Shown piece by piece: positions 1,352 to 15,626 of a stretch of DNA of 53,987 bases. Within the stretch, counting starts at the first letter, position 1, and every line of letters starts with the position of its first letter. The translations under genes were made by a program, and so were the position numbers. This DNA comes from Acidobacteriota bacterium (GTDB lineage Bacteria; Acidobacteriota; Terriglobia; Bryobacterales; Bryobacteraceae): assembly GCA_003223115.1 (NCBI GenBank), contig QHXW01000230.1, forward strand, positions 1-53,987. Direction: 5' to 3'. The notes beneath the pieces were generated by a model. That model did not search any database. It saw nothing but the letters and a program-made list of their open reading frames with translations, and was not told where the DNA came from.

Positions 1352-2560
1352 TTGGAGACGACGTGCGCGTTTCAGAATCCGAAATTGCAGCAGACGGCCG
1401 GGCACAACCCGCGGTGGTACATCCGTCCCTACGTGAAGCGGCTGTGCGCCGATGGCACGTTGAGAAGCGAAAAGGAGCGGATCTACCTCGGGGATTGTTC
1501 AGAAATGGGTAAGCGTCAGGCGATCACGGAAAAGAACAAAGTCATGGCGACGATCAACCGGGAGCGCTACGTGGTTCAGGCACAAATGCGCTTCGGCGAT
1601 TTCATCGACCACTACGAAAAACAGTTCGTCCTCCCGGAACACCACCTGGCGGCCAGCACGCAGGCGAAGGATCTCTCGCACCTCCGCGACCACATCCAGC
1701 CGGCGTTCCGCGATCTGATGATGGCCGAAGTGACGCCACAAAGGATCGATGCTTTCCTGGCGGAAAAAGCCAAGTCCGCCGGTGTGGACGCGAACGGCAA
1801 CGCCAGGCCTGGCCTGTCGTGGGCAGCAACGGTTAGACTTGCGAAACATCCTATGCGGAATGTTCACCCAAGCCCACCGATGGGGCTGGTGGACGGAACA
1901 TAACCCGGCGATGGATGCCACGGTAGGGCGCCGGCTACCGGCCCGCGAGAAGCGCAACGTGAGCGATGATCAGATCCGCGAGCTGTTCGGGGAGTTGCCC
2001 GAGGACGTGCGCACGATCCTTCAGATGTTCTTCACGCTGCGAATCAGCGAGATTTTCGGCCTGCAGGAAAAACACCTCGATTTCGCGGCTGAACTGATTC
2101 GGGTGCGGCAGCGCTACTACCTACCTACCGCGGCGACCTCGACGAGCTGAAGTCAGCCGACGCGCGCCGCGACATCCCGATGGGCGGCGATGGCGCACGC
2201 CCTTCGCCAGCGATGTGCCGGCGATCCGGAGCGGTTCGTCTTTAGCGTCATGACGAAGTTCGGCGAGAGCCGCGACGACCGCGACATCAACCAGCACTTC
2301 TTGCGGCCTGCGCGGCCAAGAGGCTTGGAATCTACTGGCCGGGGTTCGGCTTTCACCAGTTCCGGCGCCAGGCCATCACCGTTCTCGGATCGGATCCGAT
2401 GCAAGCGCAGAAGATCGCCGGCCACGCTCACGTGGACATGACGGGCGCCTACACGCTCGACGATCGCGACCGCGCCAGGGACGCGCAATCCGCGAGCATC
2501 AGGAGCGCATCCCGGGTGTGGTGCCGATCCGTCCAAAAGCTGCTTCAAATGGGCCAAAAC
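1352..2560 (+). pseudogene. Tyrosine recombinase/integrase, multiply frameshifted
   Basis: The pieces add up to a full phage-type integrase but in at least four reading-frame segments. Frame 2 (to about 1835) gives the N-terminal arm domain and the SAM-like core-binding domain (FGDFIDHYEKQFVLPEH). Frame 3 (about 1835-2120) continues with the first catalytic Arg (FTLRISEIFGLQ). Frame 2 (about 2120-2190) gives the beta-hairpin (YRGDLDELKSADARRDIPMG). Frame 3 runs to about 2310, and frame 2 again gives FHQFRRQAIT (HxxR), then GHAHVDMTGAY with the catalytic Tyr. All catalytic residues survive, so decay by indels is fairly recent. It faces the tRNA-Val fragment at 2626, as an integrase at the edge of its own element would. 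It cannot make an active enzyme as it stands. Confidence 0.8.
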
Positions 2561-2625: not shown

Positions 2626-2677
2626 TGGTGGGCCCGACAGAACTCGAATCTGTGACCTCTACCGTGTCAAGGTAGCG
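2626..2677 (-). repeat. Duplicated tRNA-Val 3' half (distal attachment site)
   Basis: These 52 bases are identical to 15550-15601, the 3' part of the tRNA-Val gene from the anticodon stem through CCA. Identity stops sharply on both sides. There is no 5' half, so this is not a functional tRNA. A perfect copy of a tRNA 3' end next to integrase genes is the usual signature of an attachment site left by site-specific integration. Confidence 0.9.
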
Positions 2678-2746
2678 GTCAGAACTCAGCCTATTGATTT
2701 TATTGGGTGATTTGGCCGCTTCTGACGGCTGAAAAGGAGGGTCAGA

Positions 2747-2770
2747 GCGCTTATCGCAGCGATATCGCAG
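2747..2770 (+). repeat. Arm-site-like direct repeat, left copy
   Basis: A 24-bp sequence found again, identical and in the same orientation, at 15485-15508. It lies 69 bases inside the distal tRNA repeat. It is built from an 11-base unit (ATCGCAGCGAT then ATCGCAGCGAG), so it is itself nearly tandem, and its centre GCGATATCGC is palindromic. In a circular form of the element the two copies would flank the attachment core, as integrase or excisionase arm sites do. Confidence 0.65.
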
Positions 2771-2779
2771 CGAGAAAAC

Positions 2780-4046
2780 TCAGTGGACACGGCGCACTCC
2801 TTTCCGGGGTTGAGGAGTCGCGGGACGCTCGCTCAGGGTTCGGTCCAGGGCTTCGATCGATTCGCGTACGCTGCGGGGAATCGGCTGCACATAGATATCA
2901 GCCGTCGTTTGCCGACCTCGCATGCCGCATCTGGGTCTGGATATCTTTCAGGTCGCCACCAGCCTCATTCGCCAGCGTCGCGAAGGTGCGGCGCATGATC
3001 TGGCAGTTAACCCGAATGCCCATCTTGTCCGCCACCGGCTTGAGCCTCCGGTTCACCCAGTTGTGATAGTCGAGCGGCATGATACTCGCTGAGGCGTCCA
3101 GTTCGCCGTTTTCAAGACGGCGCCGCCGCTTTCGCTCAGAGGGGAAGATCCAACCTGTGGGCGACGGATCACAGGAGACTTCCTTCAACTGGAGAAGGTC
3201 GCCGTAAAGTGACAGCGGCAGATAAATGGGCTTTCTGCTCTTCTTGGTCTTAGGTGGCTTCAGTTCACCACGAGAGTACGTGCGCTGAATGCGCAACGTC
3301 TGATCTGGCTGCAAGTCGTGCCACTGGAAGGCGAATGTCTCCCCTGCCCGAGGGCCGCAGCGGCTCAGCAGTTTGAAGATGATTTTGTCCCTACCCTCGA
3401 GCGCGTCTTCCAACCGCTGCACATCCCCGAACGGAACCGTGTACGTTTCGCGTTCGCGAGTATGCGGCAGCGTGAGCGTTTTTGTGGGATTCTCGGCCAC
3501 GAGCTTCTGCTCGACGGCCTCAGCGAACACAGCCTTGAGATAGATGCAGCAGCCGCTCACGGTATCGTGGCAAAGGCGGTCCGACATGCCATTCAGAAAT
3601 CGCTGCAGCCGCTTCTTATCGATGTCCGTGAGCAGTGCGGCCCCGAATTCGGAACACATCAGATTGAAGTAGTAGCTCAGCTTTTCGCGCGTAGCGTTGT
3701 TCCAGGCCGACCGGCGAACGGGGATGAATTCCTCATCGAGGAAGGACTGGAACGTTGGATCTTTGGCTTCGGAACTAGGAGCGCGCGCGCCGCGGATCAC
3801 CTCATCATGCTGCGCATCCCATCTGTTCTGTGCGGCGCCCTTGGTGGGAAGATCGCCCTTCGTCTTAAACCCGAGCACATGAGCACCTTGTTTGTACCGA
3901 AGAACACCATGCTGTCTCCGAACCTTCTGCGATAGCCTTGCTTTGCGTTGGCTTGGTGGCGATTGCGGTCCCCGGGCACCGAAAGGGAAAGCGCAACGGT
4001 GCGATACGGTCTTCTGTCCCTTGAACCCAGCGAGAATGAACGTCAT
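2780..4046 (-). pseudogene. Tyrosine recombinase A, catalytic Tyr lost by frameshift
   Basis: A phage-type integrase of about 420 residues if the frame is restored. It has an arm-domain-like N-terminus (GFKTKGDLPTKGAAQNRW), a core-binding helix bundle, then the catalytic fold: first Arg in CGPRAGETFAFQW, Lys region KTKKSRKPIYLP, MRRTFATLANEAGGD (Arg in place of the first His of HxxR) and MRHARS. The frame then stops at 2898. One base out of phase, the strand continues TTADIYVQPIPRSVRESIEA and on to a stop at 2780; the Tyr of DIYVQ is encoded at 2891-2893. The reading frame therefore breaks a few codons before the nucleophile. It ends about 100 bases from the distal attachment repeat, where an element's integrase normally sits. 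The N-terminal 40 residues are uncertain. A sequencing error is the main alternative. Confidence 0.75.
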
Positions 4047-4081
4047 GCCAGTTGATTGCTCCGCGCCGCGTTCGCGAAATT

Positions 4082-5047
4082 TCAGATAGCGATGCGCTCC
4101 ACCTCCTCGATGGAAATTTCATCATCGCGGCGATCATACAGCGCGGTAGTTTTCGAGCTGGCGTGTCCGGCGAGCTTCTGGGCCCGATCGATCGTGCCAC
4201 CGTTCTTCAGATACGCCGTGATGCCGGTAGCGCGGAAGGTGTGACAGCCAATGCGCCCGCCGATGCCGGCGTCTTCTGTCCGACGCCGGACCATGAGCCA
4301 GGCATCGACGCGCGTCATTGCGTGAGCGGTAAGCATGCGGGTACGGCCTTTCGCCGCCCGGAACAGCGGTCCCTGTTTATCCTCGGCGATTCCGGCTGCC
4401 TGTAAATAGTCGTCGATGTATTGCTCCAGTTTGTGATGGCAGGCGGCATCGATGATCTTACCGTTCTTTTCGTGCAGCCGGACGCGCCAGCGTTTTCCCC
4501 GCGAGTAGTAGTCCTCGACATTCATGCCGACGGCCGCGCTGACGCGGGCGAACGTGAACGTAAGCAGGCCGATAAGGGCGCGATCGCGCAGCCCCACTAC
4601 ATGGGACACGTCGATGGACTCTAGAAGGAGGCGTGCCTCCTCACAATCGAGCACCGGGGTGAGGCCTTTCGAGATCGAGTACCGCGGCCCTTTCACGGAG
4701 CTGGCCGGGTTCAGCTCCAATTGGTGGCCTTCCACCAGCCAGTCGAACAGCTCGCGGATGGCCGCCAGGTGCTGTTTGACGGTGGGCACCGAATAGCCCT
4801 CCTGCCGGAGCATTTCGCCGTAGCTGGCAACGTGGAGCGGCTGGACGCTGGCAATATCAGTAACGCCTCGCTGTTCGCACCAGGAGAGAAAATTCTTCAG
4901 AGCACGTGCGTACGCCTGGCGGGTATTGGAGTTCGAGATGTGGACAGTGAAGAATTCGGCGAAGCGGAGTAGCGTCCGCTTCCCTGCCCTTTCAATCAGC
5001 GCCGGCAGCGCGACTTCGGACGAGGGAACGATCAGTTGAGTGCTCAT
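4082..5047 (-). CDS. Tyrosine recombinase B (XerC/D-like)
   Basis: A 321-residue recombinase. The N-terminal SAM-like domain (residues about 25-110, SNSNTRQAYARALKNFLSWC) is followed by the catalytic domain with Arg in FTFARVSAAVGMNVEDY, a Lys in HEKNGKIID, HxxR in CHTFRATGITAYLKNGG, GHASSKTTALYDRR with the Tyr nucleophile: all key residues are present. The frame is open upstream, but the ATG at 5047 is chosen because the SD-like CGTGGAGGAAGC lies just ahead and the ATG overlaps the TGA of the VapC gene by 4 bases (ATGA), implying coupled translation. It lacks an arm-binding domain, so it resembles Xer-type or transposon-type recombinases rather than the phage type next to it. It could act on the element ends or on a site of its own; the sequence does not say. 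Confidence 0.85.
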   Translation of the reverse strand: MSTQLIVPSSEVALPALIERAGKRTLLRFAEFFTVHISNSNTRQAYARALKNFLSWCEQRGVTDIASVQPLHVASYGEMLRQEGYSVPTVKQHLAAIRELFDWLVEGHQLELNPASSVKGPRYSISKGLTPVLDCEEARLLLESIDVSHVVGLRDRALIGLLTFTFARVSAAVGMNVEDYYSRGKRWRVRLHEKNGKIIDAACHHKLEQYIDDYLQAAGIAEDKQGPLFRAAKGRTRMLTAHAMTRVDAWLMVRRRTEDAGIGGRIGCHTFRATGITAYLKNGGTIDRAQKLAGHASSKTTALYDRRDDEISIEEVERIAI

Positions 5048-5466
5048 GCTTCCTCCACGAGCGGCGCGCTCTCGGCCTGAGCCGCTTTGCGCAGATCGCC
5101 ATCGAGGGTGGCCAGCGGCAGCCCGGTGCGTTGGACCAGCGCCAAGTACGCGGCGTCGTAGGCCGTCAGCCGATGCTTTTCGGCGAGCGTCAGGATAGTA
5201 GGCCACTCGGCCGGATTGCTCGGCGGTTCGATCCGAATGGGAAGCGCGGCCAAGTCATCTATGAACTCGCTGACTTGGTCGGCGGTGACGCGGCCCCTGC
5301 GCCGAGCCATCAGCAGGGTATTGGCGACTTCGAGCGGCCAGTGCGCTGGCACCCGGACCTCTTCCCCGCCCTGAACCCGGTCGAGCAAAGCTTCAGTCCA
5401 GGGCGTGGCCTCATCTTCAAACTGCCACGGCAATGTGGCAGACGCGTCGATCACAAAGCCCGGCAT
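5044..5466 (-). CDS. vapC: VapC-like PIN-domain toxin (endoribonuclease)
   Basis: A 140-residue PIN-domain protein. The acidic site is seen in VIDASATLPW (Asp near residue 7), PLEVANTLL (Glu), YDAAYLALV (Asp) and LATLDGDL (Asp), the four-acid Mg-dependent RNase arrangement of VapC toxins, which cut tRNA or other RNA. Its ATG overlaps the antitoxin's TGA by one base (TGATG) and its own stop overlaps the recombinase start by four, so antitoxin, toxin and recombinase form one tightly coupled unit. Length is typical. Target RNA cannot be read from the sequence. Confidence 0.88.
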   Translation of the reverse strand: MPGFVIDASATLPWQFEDEATPWTEALLDRVQGGEEVRVPAHWPLEVANTLLMARRRGRVTADQVSEFIDDLAALPIRIEPPSNPAEWPTILTLAEKHRLTAYDAAYLALVQRTGLPLATLDGDLRKAAQAESAPLVEEA

Positions 5467-5717
5467 CAGTATCTATGGCCCGCGTGGATTAGGTCCTTGA
5501 TGCGGAGGCCGCCAAGGGTGACGCCTTTGCGCGACTCCCGGATGTGGGCGACGGCTTCAGCGGGGGTCTTTTTCCGCTGGGGGGCTGGCGGTTCCTTCTC
5601 GGTCAGGGTTTCGAGGGCGCGGGTGATGACTTCCTCGGGGGAGTGGTAGCGGCCGGAGCGGAGGTGAGCGGAGAGCAGCTCTTCGCCGTGTGAGTCGAGA
5701 GTCACATTCAGAGGCAT
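5466..5717 (-). CDS. Antitoxin of the VapC pair (ParD/RHH-like N-terminus)
   Basis: An 83-residue protein starting MPLNVTLDSHGEELLSAHL, then GRYHSPEEVITRALETL, the strand-helix-helix pattern of ParD-type ribbon-helix-helix antitoxins. A basic, proline-rich linker (PPAPQRKKTPAEA) leads to a tail, VAHIRESRKGVTLGG, that would wrap the toxin. An in-frame GTG lies five codons upstream; the ATG at 5717 is preferred because GAGTGGGG lies just before it. It would neutralise the PIN toxin and repress the operon through the palindrome at 5737-5766. Confidence 0.8.
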   Translation of the reverse strand: MPLNVTLDSHGEELLSAHLRSGRYHSPEEVITRALETLTEKEPPAPQRKKTPAEAVAHIRESRKGVTLGGLRIKDLIHAGHRY

Positions 5718-5736
5718 GCCCCACTCTATCACAATT

Positions 5737-5766
5737 AGCTAAACATAACGTCCTTTATGTTTAGCT
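5737..5766. promoter_or_regulatory. Perfect 11-bp palindrome, likely antitoxin operator
   Basis: AGCTAAACATA at 5737-5747 and its exact reverse complement TATGTTTAGCT at 5756-5766 are separated by 8 bases. It lies 20-50 bases ahead of the antitoxin start, in an AT-rich patch in an otherwise GC-rich region, where the promoter should be. Ribbon-helix-helix antitoxins repress their own operon at such sites. It could also form an RNA hairpin, but no T-run follows on either strand. Confidence 0.7.
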
Positions 5767-6245
5767 TTTCTGGATGAGAACATGCGTTTCTTCTCGCCCG
5801 ATTCTATGGGGAACGGTAGCGCAGTCTGAAATTCTCACGCAGCGGATGACACCCAGCCGACTGCGCTTTTACTCCGTCCCAAAAGCTGTTCCAACCAACC
5901 CGAAAAATGTTCTTGGCGCCGAAGTCGCAGGCAATCTTGCTGGTTACCTCTCAAAGCGTCAACCCAAGAAAAGTTCTTGGAGCTATCGGGCTCGGATCGC
6001 AATTGCGCCTGACCGAAAAAATGTTCGTCGTTCACGGCCGATTGAAGACTCGTCATAGGCGTGACAGAAGGTTGCACTTTCGACACGCCCGATGGAAGCA
6101 AACAAGAGCGAACGCAATTAGCATCTTGCGGGGAGGCGTTTGCAGCCCTTTTCGACACACTTCCGATAATCCCGTATGTGATGTGATGACCTCACGGCCT
6201 CGTGCTTCCCTCCTGCTTTGAAGCGTCAGCGCGCCAGAATACGTG
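5767..6245. other. Intergenic, no gene seen
   Basis: About 480 bases between the divergent toxin-antitoxin operon and the padR promoter. Frames are open on both strands (for example 5835-6158 minus), but none has a family motif or a good ribosome site. It may hold remnants; nothing is called. Confidence 0.4.
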
Positions 6246-6275
6246 TTGACAGTTTTTAGGGTACTAGTTTAGTCT
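6246..6275 (+). promoter_or_regulatory. Sigma-70-type promoter for padR-ADOP
   Basis: TTGACA at 6246-6251 and TAGTCT at 6270-6275 with an 18-base spacer, 28 bases ahead of the padR ATG. Around and after the -10 box lie TAGTTT (6265-6270) and AAACTA (6287-6292), an inverted pair that could be the PadR operator. Confidence 0.6.
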
Positions 6276-6302
6276 AGGCATAGATCAAACTAACGTACTC
6301 GG

Positions 6303-6644
6303 ATGGAACACACTCAACAACGCGATCTCTTCCCTGGGGCCCTGGAAATGATGGTGCTCCAGACCCTGCGCCGCGGACCTATGCACGGATATGCACTCGC
6401 TCAGGTCATCAAACGAAATTCAGGTGATCTCCTAGAGATCGAAGAAGGCTCGTTGTATCCAGCTTTGCAGCGGATGCTCAAGGCGGGCTGGCTGGCCGCC
6501 GAATTGGGCCTTTCGGCGCGAAACCGCCAGGTCCGGGTCTACAAAATCACCCCGGCAGGTCGTAAACAACTCGAACGGAAGGTATCGAGTTTCGACCGAA
6601 TGTTGAAGGGGATCGCGCGGGTAATGAGGCCGGCTGAATCATGA
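6303..6644 (+). CDS. PadR-family transcriptional regulator
   Basis: A 113-residue winged-helix regulator. It has the PadR signature: LFPGALEMMVLQTLRRGPMHGY (helix 1-2), the recognition region EIEEGSLYPALQRMLKAGWL, and the wing RQVRVYKITPAGRKQLE, ending in a short dimerisation helix. Its stop overlaps the start of the ADOP permease by four bases (ATGA), the standard pairing in Acidobacteria, so it very probably represses its own transporter operon in response to an unknown ligand. The ribosome site is weak and the promoter lies close, so the 5' leader is short. Confidence 0.92.
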   Translation: MEHTQQRDLFPGALEMMVLQTLRRGPMHGYALAQVIKRNSGDLLEIEEGSLYPALQRMLKAGWLAAELGLSARNRQVRVYKITPAGRKQLERKVSSFDRMLKGIARVMRPAES

Positions 6645-9280
6645 AACGGATTCTCAACTTCGTCCGTCGTCGCCAACTGGACCGCGAACTCGCTCAAGAA
6701 GTTGAATCGCATCTAGAGGAAAAGGTCGCCGACCTGATGGAAGCCGGGATTCCCGAACAGGAGGCCCGTCAGAAAGCGCATCGGGAGTTCGGGAACGCGG
6801 TGCTCTACGCGGAAATTAGCCGCGAAGTGTGGGAATGGGTCTGGCTGGAAACACTGTTACAGGACTTGCGCTTCGGCGCGCGGATGCTGCGCAAGAATCC
6901 AGGCTTTACTGTGGTTGCCGCGACCACACTGGCGCTCGGGATCGCTGTCAATACGACGATCTTCAGCGTGGTCAGCGGGTGGTTGCTCAAGAAGCCGCCG
7001 GTGGCAGACCCGGATCGCGTGGTTATGGTGGTTTCCAATAATGCGCGTCGAGCGTTGGAGCGGATGCAGGTGCCGGCGGTCGATTTTCTGGCGTGGAAGG
7101 ATGCGAACCACGTGTTCGAAAGTCTGGCTGCCGCTGAGGGTTATCGCGACTTCAGCCTCAAGGGAACTGGGGAGCCGGAGCGGCTGTCGGGGATGCGAGT
7201 TACCCCGAATTACTTCGGGACGCTTGGGGTATCGGCGTTGCTGGGGCGCACATTCTCGCCAGGTGAAGATCAACCGGGCCACGATCACGTTGTGGTGCTG
7301 ACCCACGGCCTTTGGCAGCGACGGTTTGCATCCTCCCCCCACGTGATTGGACAGACGATAGCGCTCGATGGCGAGAAATATGTAGTCATCGGCGTTATGC
7401 CGGCTTCCTTCCGGCAAATGGAGTTCCTGCCCCAGGTATGGACGCCGCTGGTTCTCCCTTTTCAAGAGCTGGGCCCGAAGGCACGCGACGACCGTTCGTT
7501 GGTGCTTTTCGCCCGGCTGAAACCAGGCATTGGACTGAGGCAAGCTCGCGCCGAAATGGCTACGCTGGCGCTCCGCGCAGAGCAAAGTTACCCGGCATCC
7601 GAGAGAGGCTGGGGCGCGGATGTCATGACACTTCAGGAGTACACGATACAGCAAGACCACGTTCGGGCGGGGCTGACGTTGTTGATGACCGCCGTGGCGC
7701 TGGTTCTCGTGATCGCCTGCGCGAACATCGCGAATCTGCTGCTGGCACGAGCTGCCAAACGCCAGCAGGAGATCGCCATCCGCACTGCGCTGGGCGCGGG
7801 GCGCATGCGTGTGATTCGCCAACTGCTGGTTGAGAGCCTGTTCATCGCGCTGATCGGTGGGGGCGTCGGCCTGGTTTTGGCTTACTGGGGTATTGATTTG
7901 CTGCGCAGCATGCTCACCTTCAATGACTATATCGCCACTATGGCCGGCGACGTCCAGCTCGATCAACGCGTGTTGGCCTTCACGTGCCTGGTTTCTCTGG
8001 GCACGGCGTTAGCATTCGGACTGGTGCCGGCCATTCGGGTCTCAGCCAGCGATCCGCAGAGCACGCTGCGGCAGGGAGGCCGGACGGGCGACCTCCGGCG
8101 CGGTGGGGGGCGCAACGTGCTGGTAGGGGGCGAAATCGCGCTGGCTGTGGTCCTGGTGACTGCCGCGGGTCTGGTCATCAAGGCTACAGCCGAGGAACTG
8201 GGCGGCGATTATGGCTATGATCCCGGGCAGGTGTTGACGGCCCGCATCTCGTTGACGAATGCCCGATATCATGACCCGGCACGCCAGATCGCTTTCTTTG
8301 AAAGGGTGATCGACAAGTTACGGGGGCTGCCGGGAATCGAGGCCGCTGCGGTTGCCAACAACGTGCCGTTCAACGCGGGCAGGCGAACCTTCAGCATCCA
8401 GAGTCAACCGGTTTTGCAGGCGGCGGAACGGGAGAGGGCCAGATACTTTGCCGTCAGTCCCGACTACTTCCGCGTCCTGCGGATTCCGCTGATCCAGGGG
8501 CGTGCCTTCCACAGGTCCGATCACGCGCGTGCCCCACGGGTGGCCATCATCAACCGCGTGTTTGCGGAACGCTTTTTTGCAGGGCAGAACGCAATAGGGC
8601 GCTACATCAGCATTGACCGCGGTGAACCGGCAGAGCCGGTATGGAGTGAGATCGTGGGAATTGCTGGCAACATCAAGGCTTCTTATAACCGGAAAGAAGA
8701 AGATGCGCAGATGTATGAGCCTTATGCGCAGGCTCCTTCAGGGGAGATGCAGATTGCGGTGCGCGCATTCGGCGATGCGAATCTGCCGGCGCCTGCATTG
8801 CGGAGTGCCGTATCGTTTGTCGATCCCGATCAGCCCGTCGGCAGAGCGCTTACAATCTCACGCTTGATCGATGAACAGGATGGTGGCGACTATGTGTTCG
8901 ACACTTTGCTTGGAATCTTTGGCGCCATGGCGCTGGCGCTGGCGGCGGTGGGGATATATGGTGTCATCGCGTACTCGGTGGCACAGCGAACGCATGAGAT
9001 CGGGATTCGCATGGCGCTGGGGGCGCACGGCGGCGATGTTCTCCGGTCGGTGATGGGCAAGGGGCTGCTGCTCGCGCTGGTGAGCGCGGTTCTCGGTCTG
9101 CTGGCCGCGGCACCTCTGCCCAAAGTCTTCGCGGCGACGCTCGAGGGATTCCGCGTCCACAGCTTGGCGATCTTCATCTGTGTCCCTTTGCTGTTGTTGT
9201 TTGTGGTACTGGCGGCGATCTACGTTCCGGCATCGCGCGCGGCGCGGATCGATCCGATGGAGGCGCTGCGGTACGAGTAA
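6641..9280 (+). CDS. ADOP-type ABC permease (MacB/FtsX family)
   Basis: An 879-residue membrane protein of the acidobacterial duplicated orphan permease type. Residues 1-70 form the family's soluble helical start (FVRRRQLDRELAQEVESHLE). A first membrane helix (GFTVVAATTLALGIAVNTTI) is followed by a MacB-like periplasmic domain, an FtsX core with three helices (around residues 345-450), a second periplasmic domain, and a second FtsX core near the C-terminus ending in the usual IDPMEALRYE. No ATP-binding subunit is nearby; members of this family are usually orphans and their substrates are unknown. Translation is coupled to padR through the ATGA overlap. Confidence 0.92.
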   Translation: MKRILNFVRRRQLDRELAQEVESHLEEKVADLMEAGIPEQEARQKAHREFGNAVLYAEISREVWEWVWLETLLQDLRFGARMLRKNPGFTVVAATTLALGIAVNTTIFSVVSGWLLKKPPVADPDRVVMVVSNNARRALERMQVPAVDFLAWKDANHVFESLAAAEGYRDFSLKGTGEPERLSGMRVTPNYFGTLGVSALLGRTFSPGEDQPGHDHVVVLTHGLWQRRFASSPHVIGQTIALDGEKYVVIGVMPASFRQMEFLPQVWTPLVLPFQELGPKARDDRSLVLFARLKPGIGLRQARAEMATLALRAEQSYPASERGWGADVMTLQEYTIQQDHVRAGLTLLMTAVALVLVIACANIANLLLARAAKRQQEIAIRTALGAGRMRVIRQLLVESLFIALIGGGVGLVLAYWGIDLLRSMLTFNDYIATMAGDVQLDQRVLAFTCLVSLGTALAFGLVPAIRVSASDPQSTLRQGGRTGDLRRGGGRNVLVGGEIALAVVLVTAAGLVIKATAEELGGDYGYDPGQVLTARISLTNARYHDPARQIAFFERVIDKLRGLPGIEAAAVANNVPFNAGRRTFSIQSQPVLQAAERERARYFAVSPDYFRVLRIPLIQGRAFHRSDHARAPRVAIINRVFAERFFAGQNAIGRYISIDRGEPAEPVWSEIVGIAGNIKASYNRKEEDAQMYEPYAQAPSGEMQIAVRAFGDANLPAPALRSAVSFVDPDQPVGRALTISRLIDEQDGGDYVFDTLLGIFGAMALALAAVGIYGVIAYSVAQRTHEIGIRMALGAHGGDVLRSVMGKGLLLALVSAVLGLLAAAPLPKVFAATLEGFRVHSLAIFICVPLLLLFVVLAAIYVPASRAARIDPMEALRYE

Positions 9281-9451
9281 GGTTTCCAGCGAAGGTGCCA
9301 AACGGATTGCCTTTCGGCATATTCAGACTCATTTTCTTACATGCCGACGATCCATCCGCTAAATGGGCCAACTTCACAGAATGTCGACCTCAAGTCGCCG
9401 GAGCCGGGTCCTACGCTGTGAGGAGACCCTGCGAGGTGTATGCTCGGACAT

Positions 9452-10102
9452 ATGCTCGTCTACCGTCCATGCCTGTATGTGTTTGCGGCATCGCTGGTGC
9501 TGGCGTACGGTCAGGTTCCCGAAGAGGCTTCACTGTCATTGCTCGTGCAGATAGTCGACCTATCAGGACCGCTGAACGGCCAGACAAGAGATACGTTTCT
9601 GAAGAGTTCCGGCTTATCCGGGGAGCAGTTACACATCGTGTCTGATGCCCTTAGCCTAGTCCTCATCTCCAATCTTGAACAAAGCGCGGCGAGAATACGA
9701 AACCGGCCGGGCGCCGATTTCACCGGTTGGGCAAAGTTTCATTCGCTCCTGCAATCGATCGAACAGCAGATGAAGGTTCACCGCGGTATCTGCAATAACA
9801 ACTCCGTCGTTTACACTTTCGGAACGCTCTTGAGGGGCAATAGCTCGATGACCGGGATTGCTGTTGCCGATGGCTTCTACCCGGCCGGGCAGGGGCACCT
9901 CTATGCCGAAGCGAACTTGAGAAGCCCCGGCGGTCGAGAAATTACCGCACGATCACCCGCCGGTTCGAATCGCATTCATGCGGCTGCCATCGTAGCTCTT
10001 CAAATCCAAGACGAGGATGGGACCTATCAAAGCAGCTATAACTTTGGGGAACTCTGCGGAGAAGACAAAGTTCCTCGAATCTACTCCGATCATCAGAATT
10101 GA
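9452..10102 (+). CDS. Secreted protein of unknown function
   Basis: A 216-residue protein with a hydrophobic leader (LVYRPCLYVFAASLVLAYGQ), suggesting export; the Cys is not in a clear lipobox. The mature part has no motif I recognise. Repeated aspects are a helical N-terminal half (SGEQLHIVSDALSLVLISNL) and a beta-rich second half with three Cys. A start four codons earlier at 9440 is equally possible. It lies 170 bases after the ADOP gene on the same strand and may be transcribed with it, but codon use and spacing do not decide this. Confidence 0.5.
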   Translation: MLVYRPCLYVFAASLVLAYGQVPEEASLSLLVQIVDLSGPLNGQTRDTFLKSSGLSGEQLHIVSDALSLVLISNLEQSAARIRNRPGADFTGWAKFHSLLQSIEQQMKVHRGICNNNSVVYTFGTLLRGNSSMTGIAVADGFYPAGQGHLYAEANLRSPGGREITARSPAGSNRIHAAAIVALQIQDEDGTYQSSYNFGELCGEDKVPRIYSDHQN

Positions 10103-10581
10103 GCGCATTTGAAAGTTCGTGCGTCGTCGCTGCCTTACGAGTTGCTTTCTGCTATGCAACAGTTAGTCCATTCTGGCCGGGTCCGTCCGACGTGCGTCCG
10201 GCTTTTCCAGCACTAATCAGGCATCATGATCCGGCTTTGTGGAAGTTACGCCCGCGCGGTGGCGTCACCCAAACCGTAGAGGTGAGGTTTTCCCCTACCG
10301 CTCGCAGCGTTTCAAAACGATTTCCTTTTGACATTCCGCTGAGTCGAACCTTTAGATTAGGCTGGAATTTGTTGGACTTGAATGCGTGCCAAAAGGGCTC
10401 GCACAGGGTTTCTGCAAATCGCTGAATGTGATTCGGCTCTTGCGACGGATCAAAACAACAAAAGGCGTTCTCGAGGACTGAATCCGGATTGTTGGACGGT
10501 AGCGTGGACGAGCCGACATTACCAATTGAGGTGGGTACTTCGGCACTTCTCCGATAAAACTATACGTCCAGATGAACGTTA

Positions 10582-10631
10582 TTTGGGCAAGGTTCCGCGA
10601 CCGGCATTTGGGCAAGTTTCCGTGACCGGCG
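10582..10631 (+). repeat. 25-bp tandem repeat, two copies
   Basis: Copy 1 (10582-10606) and copy 2 (10607-10631) share TTTGGGCAAG and TTCCG.GACCGGC with three mismatches in 25. Multiple internal repeats of this kind are known at the ends of IS21-type elements; no transposase is left here. Confidence 0.65.
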
Positions 10632-10638
10632 TTTCACG
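10621..10638 (+). repeat. 18-bp repeat flanking the kinase gene, left copy
   Basis: CGTGACCGGCGTTTCACG occurs here and again at 13672-13689, in the same orientation, on the far side of the kinase gene. Similarity continues weakly beyond it (GACTGAT against GAGTGAT). It suggests both flanks descend from one IS end. Confidence 0.65.
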
Positions 10639-10840
10639 AGACTGATCCGGATTACTGGACGGCAGGCCCGTTCGCGAAACGCCATCGGCCAAACGGTTCT
10701 GACACCCGCCCCGCTCGTTCTTGGACGTGGGCGGGACTTATGCTGTGCGTCGCAATCAGTTGCTTGCAACCCTTGCAACCCAAGCGCTGTACTCATTTCT
10801 CGCGGTCCGGCGTTAGAATGAGTAGCACAGCAAAACAGCA

Positions 10841-13549
10841 ATGCCTCTTTCCACCGGCATGCGTCTCGGCCCTTACGAGATTCTGTCTGTTCTCGGCGCC
10901 GGAGGAATGGGCGAGGTCTATCGCGCGAAAGACACACGCCTCGACCGCACCGTCGCGATCAAGATTCTGCCAGAACATCTCTCCAGTAATCCGCAACGGC
11001 GCGAACGCTTTGAGCGCGAAGCCAAGGCCATTTCAAGCCTGAGCCATCCGCACATTTGCCCCCTCTACGACGTCGGTCACCAGGATGGTATCGATTTTCT
11101 GGTGATGGAACATCTGGACGGCGAGACATTGGCACATCGGCTCAAGAAAGGATCACTGCCACCGGAGCACCTGCTCCAGTGTGGTATCCAGATCACAGAT
11201 GCGCTCGATACCGCACACAAGCATGGCGTGATTCACCGCGATCTCAAGCCTAGCAACATTATGCTCACGAAGACGGGCGCGAAGCTGCTTGATTTCGGAC
11301 TGGCAAAGGTGCGTGCGGCGGGGGCTGCCGCAGGCGTGACGGCGCTGCCCACCCAAACCACGCCGCTAACCGGAGAAGGAACGATTCTGGGTACCCTGCA
11401 ATACATGGCCCCGGAGCAACTGGAGGGCGCAGAGGCCGACGCGCGCACGGATATTTACGCGTTCGGCGCGATGCTGTATGAGATGGCCACGGGCCGCAAA
11501 GCGTTTGAGGGCAAGAGCTCGGCCAGCTTGATTGCAGCGATCATGCGTAACGAACCTGCTCCCGTCGCGCAGTTCCAGCCCGCGGGGTTCGAGGGTCTTG
11601 ACCATATCATTCGGCGGTGTCTGGCGAAGGATCCCGATCTGCGGTGGCAATCGGTATCGGACGTCAAGCTCGAACTACAGTGGGTCGCCGGGGAGAAATC
11701 CCGACGGCCGGTGCCTGCGTCTCCGCGCCGAGGCCGCAAACTCGGATGGACCGCGCTGGGCGTTTTAGCTGTCACTACTACAGCGGGACTAGGATTCTGG
11801 TTGGGCCACGCCAAGGTGCCTAAGCCGCCCGAACTGCGCCACCTCACGTATTCAGGTCACGACCTCAATCCCGCCGCCTCGCCCGACGGCCAAAGCGTGG
11901 CCTTCAGGTCCGACCGCGACGGTCGGCAGCGAATTTGGCTGAAGGAATTGGCCAGAGGGGACGAGGTGGCAATTACCGAGGGACCTAGCGACGATTTCCC
12001 AAGGTTTTCGCCCGACGGCTCGATGATTTTGTTCACGCGCTACGTCGCTGGCCGATCCGCTATCTACCGGGCCACGGTTCTCGGTGGAGATGCCCGCAGG
12101 TTGGTGGACGCGGCCGAACTCGCTGACTGGTCCCCGGACGGTCGCAGTATTGTGTATTTCCAAACCAAGACTAACGACCGAAGAACTATTCGGAGTATCG
12201 AGCTTGCCGGGGCGGACGGAGCTCACAAGCGGCAAATCGCGCGCATCGAAAACCAGGGGCTGGACTGCCTCCGCTGGTCACCGGACGGCCGCACCATCGC
12301 CGGGTCGTATCACAGTGGGATCTCCGGGCTGCCCGCTTCCATATACCTAGTCGGAGTTGACGGAACGAATCCTCGTTCGATCTCCGCGCCACATGGAGGC
12401 TCGCACATCTCCTCGATAGCCTGGGCCGGCACCGGTACGGAGATGATCTATTCTCAAAGTTTGGGGGTCCTGCCCAGCCTGGTGGGTCGGGCCCGGCTCA
12501 TCCGACAGAACGTTGCCTCGGGCGCTACCGAACAAGCTTTGTTAATGCCCTATGAGAGTTCTGGCGTGGATATTCTAGGGTCTGGCCGGCTGGTCTTTGA
12601 CGCCAGCTCTCCTCGTATGAGTTTGCGGGAGGTCCGGTTAACGCCCGGAGGGAACGCAATCGAAGGCCGCTCTCTTACTCGCAGCGGCGACGGATTCAAG
12701 TTGGTCCTGGATGACAATTTGCGGGCCTCCGCCACCGAACGCCGATGGCTTACTCGCGGTGACAGCAACGACTGGCAGCCTGTATATTCACCTGACGGTG
12801 AGTGGGTGATGTTTACCTCCAACCGGAGCGGCAACCTTGACCTGTGGGAAATTTCTCCGAAAACAGGTGTGCTACGGCGCATTACCGAAGACCCGTCAGA
12901 CGACTGGGATCCGGGCTTTACACCTGACGGTAAGATCATTTGGGGCTCAAACCGCACTGGCAACCTCGAGATCTGGACCGCCGATGCAGACGGCGCCAAC
13001 GCCCGCCAAGTTACCCATGACGGCGCCGATGCTGAGAATCCCACGGCGACACGCGACGGCTGGATCGTGTACTCTTCTGGCAATCCCGCCAAACAGGGTG
13101 TCTGGAAAATCCGGCAGGACGGTTCGAAGGCTACTCGCCTTTACGCCGGCCCGGTCAGCGTGACCGAAGTCTCGCCGAACGGGCAATATGCCGCTTACAG
13201 AGACCTGCTCAACGAGGGTGCTCTGGCCTTTCTTCGCGTCTCCGATGGTACAGCGGTGCCTTTCCAGGCGGGGGATGCAGCTCTTCGGTCTCGCTGGATG
13301 CTGGGCGGCCGCGCGATCGCATTCCTGAGGCAGCACGAGAGAGGAGTTTTCGTTCAGGACTTCGTCCCCGGACGCGATACTACCAGAACCCGCCGCAAGC
13401 TGCCTGGATCCGAGGTGGACATGACGATCGGCTCCTTCGGCATCTCTCCGGACGGCTCCCGCATGACGATCGCCTACGTGGAGGAACAGCACAGCCTCAT
13501 GACGGCGGAGCAGGTTCCCGGCGTGCTGCTCGAGCGCAGGGCGAGGTGA
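10841..13549 (+). CDS. Membrane Ser/Thr protein kinase with PD40/TolB propeller
   Basis: A 902-residue receptor-like kinase. Residues 10-280 are a Hanks-type kinase: glycine loop GAGGMGEVY (19-27), VAIK Lys at 41, catalytic HRDLKPSN (132-139), DFGLA (151-155), APEQL. A basic patch (PRRGRK, about 295-300) precedes one membrane helix (301-322, LGWTALGVLAVTTTAGLGFW). The outer part, about 330-900, is a WD40-like/PD40 propeller with repeated SPDG motifs (AASPDGQSVAF, RFSPDGSMILF, DWSPDGRSIV, RWSPDGRTIAG, VYSPDGEWVMF). It would phosphorylate cytoplasmic proteins in response to a ligand bound outside. This pattern is greatly expanded in Acidobacteria. It is flanked by IS-like repeats, so may have been moved as a unit. 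Confidence 0.93.
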   Translation: MPLSTGMRLGPYEILSVLGAGGMGEVYRAKDTRLDRTVAIKILPEHLSSNPQRRERFEREAKAISSLSHPHICPLYDVGHQDGIDFLVMEHLDGETLAHRLKKGSLPPEHLLQCGIQITDALDTAHKHGVIHRDLKPSNIMLTKTGAKLLDFGLAKVRAAGAAAGVTALPTQTTPLTGEGTILGTLQYMAPEQLEGAEADARTDIYAFGAMLYEMATGRKAFEGKSSASLIAAIMRNEPAPVAQFQPAGFEGLDHIIRRCLAKDPDLRWQSVSDVKLELQWVAGEKSRRPVPASPRRGRKLGWTALGVLAVTTTAGLGFWLGHAKVPKPPELRHLTYSGHDLNPAASPDGQSVAFRSDRDGRQRIWLKELARGDEVAITEGPSDDFPRFSPDGSMILFTRYVAGRSAIYRATVLGGDARRLVDAAELADWSPDGRSIVYFQTKTNDRRTIRSIELAGADGAHKRQIARIENQGLDCLRWSPDGRTIAGSYHSGISGLPASIYLVGVDGTNPRSISAPHGGSHISSIAWAGTGTEMIYSQSLGVLPSLVGRARLIRQNVASGATEQALLMPYESSGVDILGSGRLVFDASSPRMSLREVRLTPGGNAIEGRSLTRSGDGFKLVLDDNLRASATERRWLTRGDSNDWQPVYSPDGEWVMFTSNRSGNLDLWEISPKTGVLRRITEDPSDDWDPGFTPDGKIIWGSNRTGNLEIWTADADGANARQVTHDGADAENPTATRDGWIVYSSGNPAKQGVWKIRQDGSKATRLYAGPVSVTEVSPNGQYAAYRDLLNEGALAFLRVSDGTAVPFQAGDAALRSRWMLGGRAIAFLRQHERGVFVQDFVPGRDTTRTRRKLPGSEVDMTIGSFGISPDGSRMTIAYVEEQHSLMTAEQVPGVLLERRAR

Positions 13550-13671
13550 AATCGAGGGCTCGCTGCGTTGCGATCCCTCGATCACACCAACGGAAGCCGG
13601 TGATTAATCCCCATGTAATGAAGAGCCCGGCGGCTGCTTATGAACGATTGACGTTGTGCACCTTGTCCGGA

Positions 13672-13689
13672 CGTGACCGGCGTTTCACG
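13672..13689 (+). repeat. 18-bp repeat flanking the kinase gene, right copy
   Basis: Identical to 10621-10638. It lies 120 bases after the kinase stop codon. Confidence 0.65.
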
Positions 13690-13946
13690 GGAGTGATTCA
13701 TTCCGAACCGGCACTCCGCGGCAGCTTCATAACTACCCTAACACCCCCGATGTGAGGCGCCGTCCGTCGGGCGACCGGCAATCGACCAGCTTGACCGGTG
13801 CGCGCCAGGCGCGTCATTGCAACGCGGCCGTGTCGACAGTGAAGCCGGTTGGGTTCGCTTTACGTATGCGGCTTGCGCGCAGGGCAAGCTCGCGGGCTTC
13901 TCGCTTCCGATGGAGCGGAGGAGCTGGCGGGTTTCTTTTTTTGAGT

Positions 13947-14719
<773 letters not shown>

Positions 14720-14839
14720 GCCTGCGTGCCCCTCAACGCCAAGAGTTTTCTCTTGTCCGCCATTCGAACCGCAGGAGTTGTTTGCACCTGAAAAATGAGC
14801 ATGGATCTATTCAAACTCACTGCGGATCTGGATCGCGTT

Positions 14840-15154
14840 CTAGCGGACCGATTGATCGCTCCGGTTAATCACTTCATCCAGCAACCTTTCTGCTGTTTGG
14901 CGCTTCAGCGGCGGCGCAGCTGTTGCCATCGCGAGCGCGTGTCCTTTGGCAGTCGCCTCCCAGTGATCCTCCGTAGTTGTGACCAACCCTTCGGCCTCAA
15001 ATTTCCGGAGTAACCCGCGAGCGTCCTCCCGATCCCAACCGAGAAGATGGGTAATCGTGCGGGGCCTGATGATAAATCCTGCGGCCCTTCGCATGAATCG
15101 CCGAACGTCTGTTGCCGGAATCCCTGCGATTAATTGGTTCTTTTCGAGTCGCAT
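14840..15154 (-). CDS. Winged-helix protein, probably truncated (nucleotidyltransferase-associated domain)
   Basis: A 104-residue protein with a helix-turn-helix (RTITHLLGWDREDARGLLRKFEAEGLV) and a short wing (TTTEDHWEATAKGHALAMATA), then KRQTAERLLDEVINR before an early stop. I know this layout as the N-terminal part of longer predicted nucleotidyltransferases, where the helix is followed by a catalytic domain. That domain is absent here; the DNA just beyond shows only short frames. It may be a truncated gene or an independent small regulator. It lies beside the excisionase-like gene, on the same strand, 25 bases downstream of it. Confidence 0.5.
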   Translation of the reverse strand: MRLEKNQLIAGIPATDVRRFMRRAAGFIIRPRTITHLLGWDREDARGLLRKFEAEGLVTTTEDHWEATAKGHALAMATAAPPLKRQTAERLLDEVINRSDQSVR

Positions 15155-15179
15155 GTCATAAACCTTTCACCAACCGTCA

Positions 15180-15425
15180 TCACTTTGGAACAGCGGCCAG
15201 TCGAAGATCGGGAGTGAAGGTGTGGCTTCTACGCTGGGCCTGGCGAGTGATGAAGTCTTCCACTTCCTCCCGGCGGAAGCGCAACAGTTTTCCGATTCGC
15301 ACCGAAGCAATCCGGGGTTCCTTAGTGGTCGCGTGATCCTGTACCCAGTCGACCGACACATCGAGCCATGAAGCCACCTCTCGAGGCGTCAGCAGCTTTT
15401 CAGCGGGGAGGTATTTTGTTTCCAT
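15180..15425 (-). CDS. Excisionase-like MerR/Xis helix-turn-helix protein
   Basis: An 81-residue protein with the winged-helix signature of excisionase-family proteins: KLLTPREVASWLDVSVDWVQ, then a loop, IGKLLRFRREEVEDFITRQ. GAGGG lies a few bases ahead of the ATG. These small proteins bend attachment-site DNA and bias an integrase towards excision. Its position, 125 bases from the tRNA-Val attachment site and with an arm-like repeat in between, fits that role on the putative element. A general regulator of the same fold is the alternative. Confidence 0.8.
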   Translation of the reverse strand: METKYLPAEKLLTPREVASWLDVSVDWVQDHATTKEPRIASVRIGKLLRFRREEVEDFITRQAQRRSHTFTPDLRLAAVPK

Positions 15426-15484
15426 GCCCTCTTATAAACCAACGTCGAAATTTCGCCAAAAGTCTCGCCGGAATGAATGCCAGC

Positions 15485-15508
15485 GCGCTTATCGCAGCGA
15501 TATCGCAG
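15485..15508 (+). repeat. Arm-site-like direct repeat, right copy
   Basis: Identical to 2747-2770 over 24 bases, same orientation; 41 bases inside the tRNA-borne attachment repeat and ahead of the excisionase-like gene. Confidence 0.65.
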
Positions 15509-15549
15509 AGTGAGATTCTTGGGCCAATTTGCTAAGTGATTGAAAACAA

Positions 15550-15626
15550 TGGTGGGCCCGACAGAACTCGAATCTGTGACCTCTACCGTGTCAAGGTAGC
15601 GCTCTAACCAACTGAGCTACGGGCCC
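15550..15626 (-). tRNA. tRNA-Val (anticodon GAC)
   Basis: Read on the minus strand, a 7-bp acceptor stem pairs GGGCCCG with CGGGCCC, the D-arm GCTC..GAGC is present, the anticodon stem is CTACC/GGTAG with loop TTGACAC (anticodon GAC, Val), the T-arm is ACAGA/TCTGT with loop TTCGAGT, and CCA is encoded. It is 77 bases. The 3' 52 bases (15550-15601) are duplicated at 2626-2677. It is the probable integration site of the neighbouring element and remains intact. Confidence 0.97.

Follow-up and report, generated by a model that had tools for sequence, protein, structure and literature searches.

The DNA described here, called the window, is a stretch of 53,987 nucleotides from contig QHXW01000230.1 (assembly GCA_003223115.1) of an Acidobacteriota bacterium in the family Bryobacteraceae. 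It contains a 12.9-kb island at a tRNA-Val(GAC) gene. Within this island, the gene for a Ser/Thr kinase with a PD40 propeller is framed by two direct copies of a short core repeat. The whole is probably a tRNA-Val element with cargo from mixed sources, in which the kinase is nested between core repeats that behave like a recombination junction. The sequences suggest that the kinase is a separate nested unit and more than just cargo of the tRNA element. The tRNA island as such is ordinary; the repeat frame of the kinase is the more interesting feature. Coordinates are given in Table 1.

The frame is a 26-bp direct repeat with 24 of 26 positions identical, starting at 10621 and 13672. In a sequence model built without them, these two cores score 45.2 and 44.2, while the next best place in the window scores -0.6 and the best of 8 shuffled windows reaches 7.9.

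The core is dispersed over the genome. Its 18-nt centre is found at 18 places with at most two mismatches, as opposed to 2 for a reversed control; some of the 18 are probably due to chance. A 33-nt model, built from 13 places in this genome, finds 23 sites there at E up to 0.01, 10 of which are outside the model. Among the 18 places there are five pairs, 1.8-4.1 kb apart and all on the same strand, where 0.17 would be expected within 5 kb (Poisson P about 1e-6, an estimate that ignores clustering in mobile regions). If the window pair that started the search is left out, 4 pairs remain in 16 places (P about 1e-5). A sixth pair, on contig C187, is excluded from this statistic, which uses the 18 pattern places: its second site was obtained in a local scan and is part of the 33-nt model.

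The content between paired cores is of the sensor type in 4 of the 6 pairs of this genome. The window and C3 have a kinase-propeller, in C3 spread over two open reading frames (ORFs), C187 has a kinase-TPR gene, and C168 a wHTH-propeller plus a 234-aa ORF. The unit on C386 contains a subtilase and a hydrolase-like ORF (below cut-off), and that on C81 an unassigned 488-aa ORF. Such units are also found in other genomes. In G185 (contig C126), kinase and PD40 ORFs lie between same-strand cores with two mismatches each. In G199 (C113) the cores, again on one strand and with one and three mismatches, enclose a PadR-ADOP pair.

Under stricter filters, a core site at E up to 0.001 is present in 30 of 200 genomes of the family. 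In searches that may leave out records near the genome studied here, the exact 21-mer turned up in 7 contig stretches of GTDB r220 (Bryobacterales 5, Candidatus Solibacter 1, Solibacteraceae 1), and the exact core in one IMG/VR contig classed as viral (L253 5680-5700). The parts of the open-access literature that were covered describe no such site; most subscription journals and all preprints lie outside this coverage.

The core appears to behave like a recombination junction, with flanks exchanged at its edges. Over 66 sites with at most 3 mismatches, from 62 sources including this genome, conservation is limited to about -3 to +27. When 60-nt arms were compared over 2,145 site pairs (thresholds 0.55 and 0.48 identity), resemblance was confined to the left arm in 14 pairs and to the right arm in 34, and extended to both arms in 1. 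As controls, shuffled arms gave 0 pairs at 0.55, and the stretch 150-209 nt downstream gave 3. BLAST on 71 sites shows the same edges: 18 left-only matches end between +18 and +29 (mode +20), and 48 right-only matches start between -8 and +6 (mode 0). A further 7 matches extend to both sides, and 2 cover little beyond the core. For all these counts, sites from the same genome are not independent of each other, and the collection itself was made by match to the core. A nucleotide comparison of kinase paralogues, made for the limits of the unit, found patchy similarity in the coding part and better conserved flanks.

One case can be followed over a longer distance. Two genomes of one genus, G022 and G112, share 5.3 kb at about 94% identity, which ends at core position +20 with no nucleotide match beyond. 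The other limit of this block, in this single case, is the end of tRNA-Lys in both. In two congeners the block from core to tRNA-Lys spans L265 653-8154 and L266 552-7210, at about 92-95% identity. The stop in G022 and G112 may fit the insertion of a unit, or equally a rearrangement of larger DNA. A gene between direct copies of a site with exchanged flanks is the arrangement of a cassette, and here the exchange is deduced from sequence comparison.

It is doubtful that the core is instead a passive or regulatory intergenic repeat near kinase genes (REP-like, a promoter, a terminator or a non-coding RNA) and no recombination site. Such a repeat would be at home where the core is found: 60 of the 66 sites lie outside ORFs of at least 150 aa, and several cores are 130-220 nt upstream of kinase genes. 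Numerous short repeats are also described for Candidatus Solibacter usitatus, along with candidate genomic islands with tRNAs and integrases, many integrases overall, and abundant kinase paralogues that are mostly less than 50% identical (PMC3174227). The available part of that description has no repeat framing a kinase.

The next gene downstream is on the strand of the core at 36 sites, however, and on the other strand at 28, with none near at 2. This counts against a promoter and rules it out as the main function of the core. Rfam gave no match at the window cores; its matches elsewhere were weak and put down to chance, and nine other sources yielded a tRNA only. This speaks against a structured RNA. 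An intergenic repeat also leaves unexplained that flanks switch independently at the core edges, and that congener synteny stops at +20.

It is also conceivable, if unlikely, that core units owe their movement to IS91-like elements, or to homologous recombination at the repeats, with no dedicated site-specific recombinase involved. Near cores in C168 (L094/L120) and in G036 C51 (L228) there is an IS91-family transposase together with a tyrosine recombinase, and direct repeats could recombine by homology. But IS91 genes are present at only two of the loci examined, and the shared flanks have sharp edges. Homologous recombination rarely acts on 21-28 bp.

A candidate for a dedicated recombinase was found in G001 on contig C711: an integrase whose gene begins 98 bp from a core lying ahead of a kinase gene. 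It is 51% identical to an integrase in G003 C20. Its family has matches in 21 of 61 family genomes, and 11 in the genome studied here, some of them fragments (members include L123 1296-2363 and L121 3068-4009). It is present in 8 of 10 core-bearing genomes, compared to the 21 of 61 overall.

Known systems offer partial parallels. Integron cassettes (attC/IntI) also consist of genes between direct short sites, with flanks exchanged at the site. Here, however, units measure 2-4 kb, and a site mostly stands alone. Upstream arms together with the core fold like shuffled sequences (z -0.01, -1.37 and 0.56, no attC-specific model being run), and none of five stretches gave an attC-like fold better than shuffles. 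None of 7 recombinases, among 10 proteins scanned, reaches the cut-off of TIGR02249 for IntI, a search that did not extend to the whole genome. The IS91-associated recombinase does pass NF040815, a model named 'XerA/integron integrase'. The pdif modules of XerC/XerD are similar in having genes between sites of ~28 bp. These are Xer sites, often in alternating orientation, whereas the core pairs of this genome are all direct.

A tentative reading, less likely than not, is that Bryobacteraceae have a hitherto undescribed site-specific recombination system. In it a core of ~21-28 bp (CGTGACCGGCGTTTCMCRGGA plus the ATCC-like positions after it) would join exchangeable flanks and move units of 2-4 kb, one of which would be the window kinase inside its tRNA island. 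Such units might often be sensor kinases, wHTH-propeller regulators or PadR-ADOP permeases, which is proposed just as tentatively.

The island itself is bounded by 52 bp that are exactly identical at 2626-2677 and 15550-15601 and equal tRNA-Val positions 26-77. The second copy begins 12,924 bp away from the first. ARAGORN finds a single tRNA gene in the window, the intact tRNA-Val(gac) at 15550-15626 on the minus strand. This is the layout of a tRNA island, with an intact tRNA at one boundary and, at the far one, its 3' end directly repeated. Inside both ends is a 42-bp subterminal repeat, 35/42 identical. A similar motif was seen by eye between int and tRNA-Val(CAC) in L106 of genome G108. 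The parts of the island have a GC content of 0.53-0.61, against 0.59 for the chromosome, so composition does not set it apart. Between the repeats the order is int1, int2, PIN/RHH, PadR, ADOP, a 220-aa ORF, the kinase-propeller, a split cyclase-like gene, a small ORF and an excisionase-like gene (xis).

That the 52-bp repeat is a product of chance or duplication, and no integration scar, is hardly credible. Random sequence of the length of the window would be expected to hold ~7e-23 exact repeats of 52 bp, which excludes chance. Other half-copies of the tRNA, in unrelated surroundings, likewise run from the tRNA 3' end to near the anticodon stem. The integrase and xis are moreover placed at the ends of the repeat-bounded DNA. 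The only point for chance or duplication is the lack of a fully conserved empty site.

The preliminary description of this DNA had claimed an integrative element in tRNA-Val, bounded by a perfect repeat of the 3' end of an intact tRNA, with the recombinases and an excisionase-like gene at opposite ends. The repeat comparison and ARAGORN bear out the first part, and Pfam, TIGRFAM and PHROG matches the second. It had passed over the early end of the int1 frame, the broken integrase beside the 2626 copy, the PIN/RHH pair, the 42-bp repeat, the repeat around the kinase and the split cyclase-like gene. The element as such is supported by the att repeats, the integrase and excisionase, the subterminal repeats, an int-xis module at tRNA-Val(CAC) elsewhere, and varying occupancy in relatives.

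The island has a tyrosine integrase and an excisionase-type gene, though the frame of int1 is broken. It stops past the conserved HxxR/His region but short of the expected tyrosine, a residue still present in related integrases; by eye, a continuation is present in another frame. It appears that int1 is inactive and that int2 plays no part. Because int1 appears broken, the island would now be fixed or nearly so, and it is probably a fossil. Elsewhere in this genome, C386 has a 177-bp fragment that is 85% identical to part of int1 (L095 2152-2328), a remnant of a second integrase copy.

Homologues of int1 were searched in 150 family genomes at E up to 1e-20, with 30 genomes positive, this one included. 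Outside it there are 32 matches, 29 of which are given as loci (L060-L088). A tRNA gene is present in 17 of the 29 (Gly-CCC 11, Val-CAC 3, and Lys, Arg and Thr 1 each), always on the opposite strand and within 450 bp beyond the integrase match on its 3' side, and a xis homologue is upstream of the integrase in 11; contig ends may hide more. The closest module, in G108 C85 of another genus, has a xis of 71% and an int of 46-48% identity, adjoining each other and tRNA-Val(CAC). The same module is thus seen at tRNA 3' ends elsewhere, and judging from these loci, int1/xis belongs to a family of pairs found next to tRNA 3' ends in Bryobacteraceae.

Occupancy of the tRNA region was searched in 61 genomes, 37 of the family. 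Half-copies of this tRNA are found in at least 9 of the 37, this genome included, at identities of 87-100%, and start at or near the tRNA 3' end. Among the matches listed they are in this genome (two, at 2626 and C121:8533), G001, G007, G013, G014 (two), G019, G021, G026 and G027. ARAGORN calls those in G001 C260 and G019 whole tRNA genes. The further half-copy of tRNA-Val(GAC) on C121 (L039 8533-8583), an unlinked contig, is perhaps the far end of stacked elements.

Directly left of the 2626 copy, outside the island, is the remnant of another integrase, related to one that in G001 points at a tRNA-Val half-copy in the same arrangement as int1 in the window. In a comparison of 26 flank stretches, the left flank of the window matched only this G001 integrase. 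Given this broken relative, the island is probably stacked onto an older element at the same tRNA.

The preliminary description had also proposed a comparison with relatives for an empty site. In G001 and G030 an SDR gene and tRNA-Val are neighbours, with no sign of this island in the 5 and 17 kb fetched on the 3' side. Only the 5' side of the tRNA is shared there; the fetched 3' sides have no similarity to the window, and do not provide a clean empty site.

Like known tRNA-integrated islands, this one combines an intact tRNA, a 3' direct repeat, an integrase, an excisionase, subterminal repeats and apparently stacked occupation. Unlike them, it has integrase and excisionase at opposite ends with cargo in between, a broken int1, and no conjugation or phage structural genes among the scanned proteins. 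Pfam scans of 12 element proteins, with short and split ORFs covered only partly, found no relaxase or conjugation genes. PHROG comparison of 10 element proteins (ADOP and kinase left out) found no phage structural genes; its matches were limited to integrase, excisionase/regulator and one family without known function. Prophages and mobile elements are known in Acidobacteria, going by the available part of one study (PMC5900883).

The cargo does not seem to share one history. In the 61 genomes, matches to ADOP at E up to 1e-200 are confined to its own genome and the congeners G002 (73%) and G001 (67%). As a yardstick, the SDR gene beside the tRNA is 76-77% identical in these two. The G002 orthologue follows PadR, in the middle of a row of three ADOP genes, in a 19-kb stretch without tRNA. 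Nucleotide similarity to G002 begins at 6776, 135 bp into the gene, and ends at 9276 with the gene; the protein match spans residues 3-879. The first 135 bp (6641-6775), without nucleotide similarity to the gene of the congeners, may be a diverged start or come from a chimera of ADOP paralogues.

For the kinase-propeller, the sole match at E up to 1e-180 outside its own genome is 51% identical and in another family (G039), and the congeners G001 and G002 have no counterpart above cut-off. Since both congeners have ADOP orthologues and neither such a kinase, ADOP and kinase appear to have different histories. ADOP would be a capture from the host genus, not a gene brought into that genus. For a defence role of the kinase (PD-T4-6), which was considered and not adopted, only the kinase domain region (~residues 1-295) matches, alongside many other kinase models.

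The island could also have arrived whole, as one element with PadR-ADOP and kinase as its one cargo and with cores unrelated to mobility, but this is quite improbable. Both genes do lie between the att repeats, and both families are numerous (517 ADOP and 183 kinase first-look candidates in this genome). Against this stand the different distributions in the congeners, and the kinase being the only cargo framed by a dispersed direct repeat. The earlier idea that PadR-ADOP and kinase are spread as element cargo is thus right as to their place between the repeats. It is not borne out for ADOP, and incomplete for the kinase with its own frame. Cargo syntenic in genomes without the repeats, named at the time as a reason to give up that idea, is nearly what the ADOP orthologues and the PadR-ADOP cluster of G002 amount to.

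Under the proposed nesting of the kinase in a tRNA-Val element, a tyrosine-integrase element would have entered the 3' end of tRNA-Val(GAC) beside the remains of an earlier element, leaving the 52-bp duplication. Its cargo would have been gathered from different sources: PadR-ADOP native to the genus, a toxin-antitoxin pair, and the kinase-propeller unit. The kinase would have entered by recombination at the ~28-bp core, as a unit of its own between two direct copies.

Several points weigh against this account. Two of the six core pairs in this genome have no sensor gene inside. A synteny test of the core-bounded units of C187 and G185 C126 was uninformative, because surroundings and neighbours are not conserved. 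The C711-type integrase was not adopted as core recombinase, since only 1 of 30 loci, that of G001 itself, has a core with at most 2 mismatches within flanks of up to 1.5 kb. In the window xis and int1 are at opposite ends of the island with cargo between them, where they are neighbours in the 11 relatives carrying both. The frameshifts in int1 and the cyclase-like gene could be assembly errors in this draft of 594 contigs. In the relatives compared, no empty site conserved on both sides was found.

Table 1. Features of the tRNA-Val island and its left border in the window
Feature	Position	Strand	Basis or remark
Remnant of another tyrosine integrase, three frames, outside island	1370..2479	+	Related to integrase at G001 tRNA-Val half-copy
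attR, 52-bp copy of tRNA-Val positions 26-77	2626..2677	-	Exact repeat
Subterminal repeat, left, putative arm type	2734..2775	+	Repeat comparison; exact 19-mer 2752-2770
int1, tyrosine integrase, frame ends before catalytic Tyr	2898..4046	-	Recombinase 2901-4046 (Phage_integrase); PHROG 1, E 1.2e-41
int2, XerC/D-like tyrosine recombinase, open frame	4082..5047	-	Recombinase 4085-5047 (Phage_integrase)
PIN-domain (VapC-like) toxin candidate	5044..5466	-	PF01850
RHH/ParD-like antitoxin candidate	5466..5732	-	PF03693
PadR-family regulator	6303..6644	+	PF03551
ADOP-type permease	6641..9280	+	MacB_PCD + FtsX
220-aa ORF, no family found	9440..10102	+	Profile scans
Partial second copy of downstream arm D1, upstream of kinase unit	10464..10505	+	
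Core repeat copy 1, 28 bp, then arm D1 to ~10676	10621..10648	+	
Ser/Thr kinase with PD40 propeller	10841..13549	+	Pfam
Arm U2, common to C3 and C331 of the same genome	13599..13671	+	
Core repeat copy 2, same orientation	13672..13699	+	
Gene split between two frames	13947..14719	-	First fragment weakly squalene-hopene-cyclase-like, E 0.0058, below cut-off
Small ORF	14840..15154	-	Winged-helix-like at best (below cut-off)
Excisionase-like HTH protein	15180..15425	-	HTH_17; TIGR01764 above cut-off; PHROG 66
Subterminal repeat, right, putative arm type	15472..15513	+	Repeat comparison; exact 19-mer 15490-15508
Intact tRNA-Val(GAC); attL = 15550-15601	15550..15626	-	ARAGORN; Rfam RF00005; exact repeat

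Cargo carried in an island may have a further mobility independent of the island. Should the core prove to be a recombination site, there would be a concrete mechanism by which receptor kinases and ADOP permeases could have become so abundant in soil Acidobacteria. The core system, if true, would then be part of the explanation for why these families have expanded so greatly in Acidobacteria.

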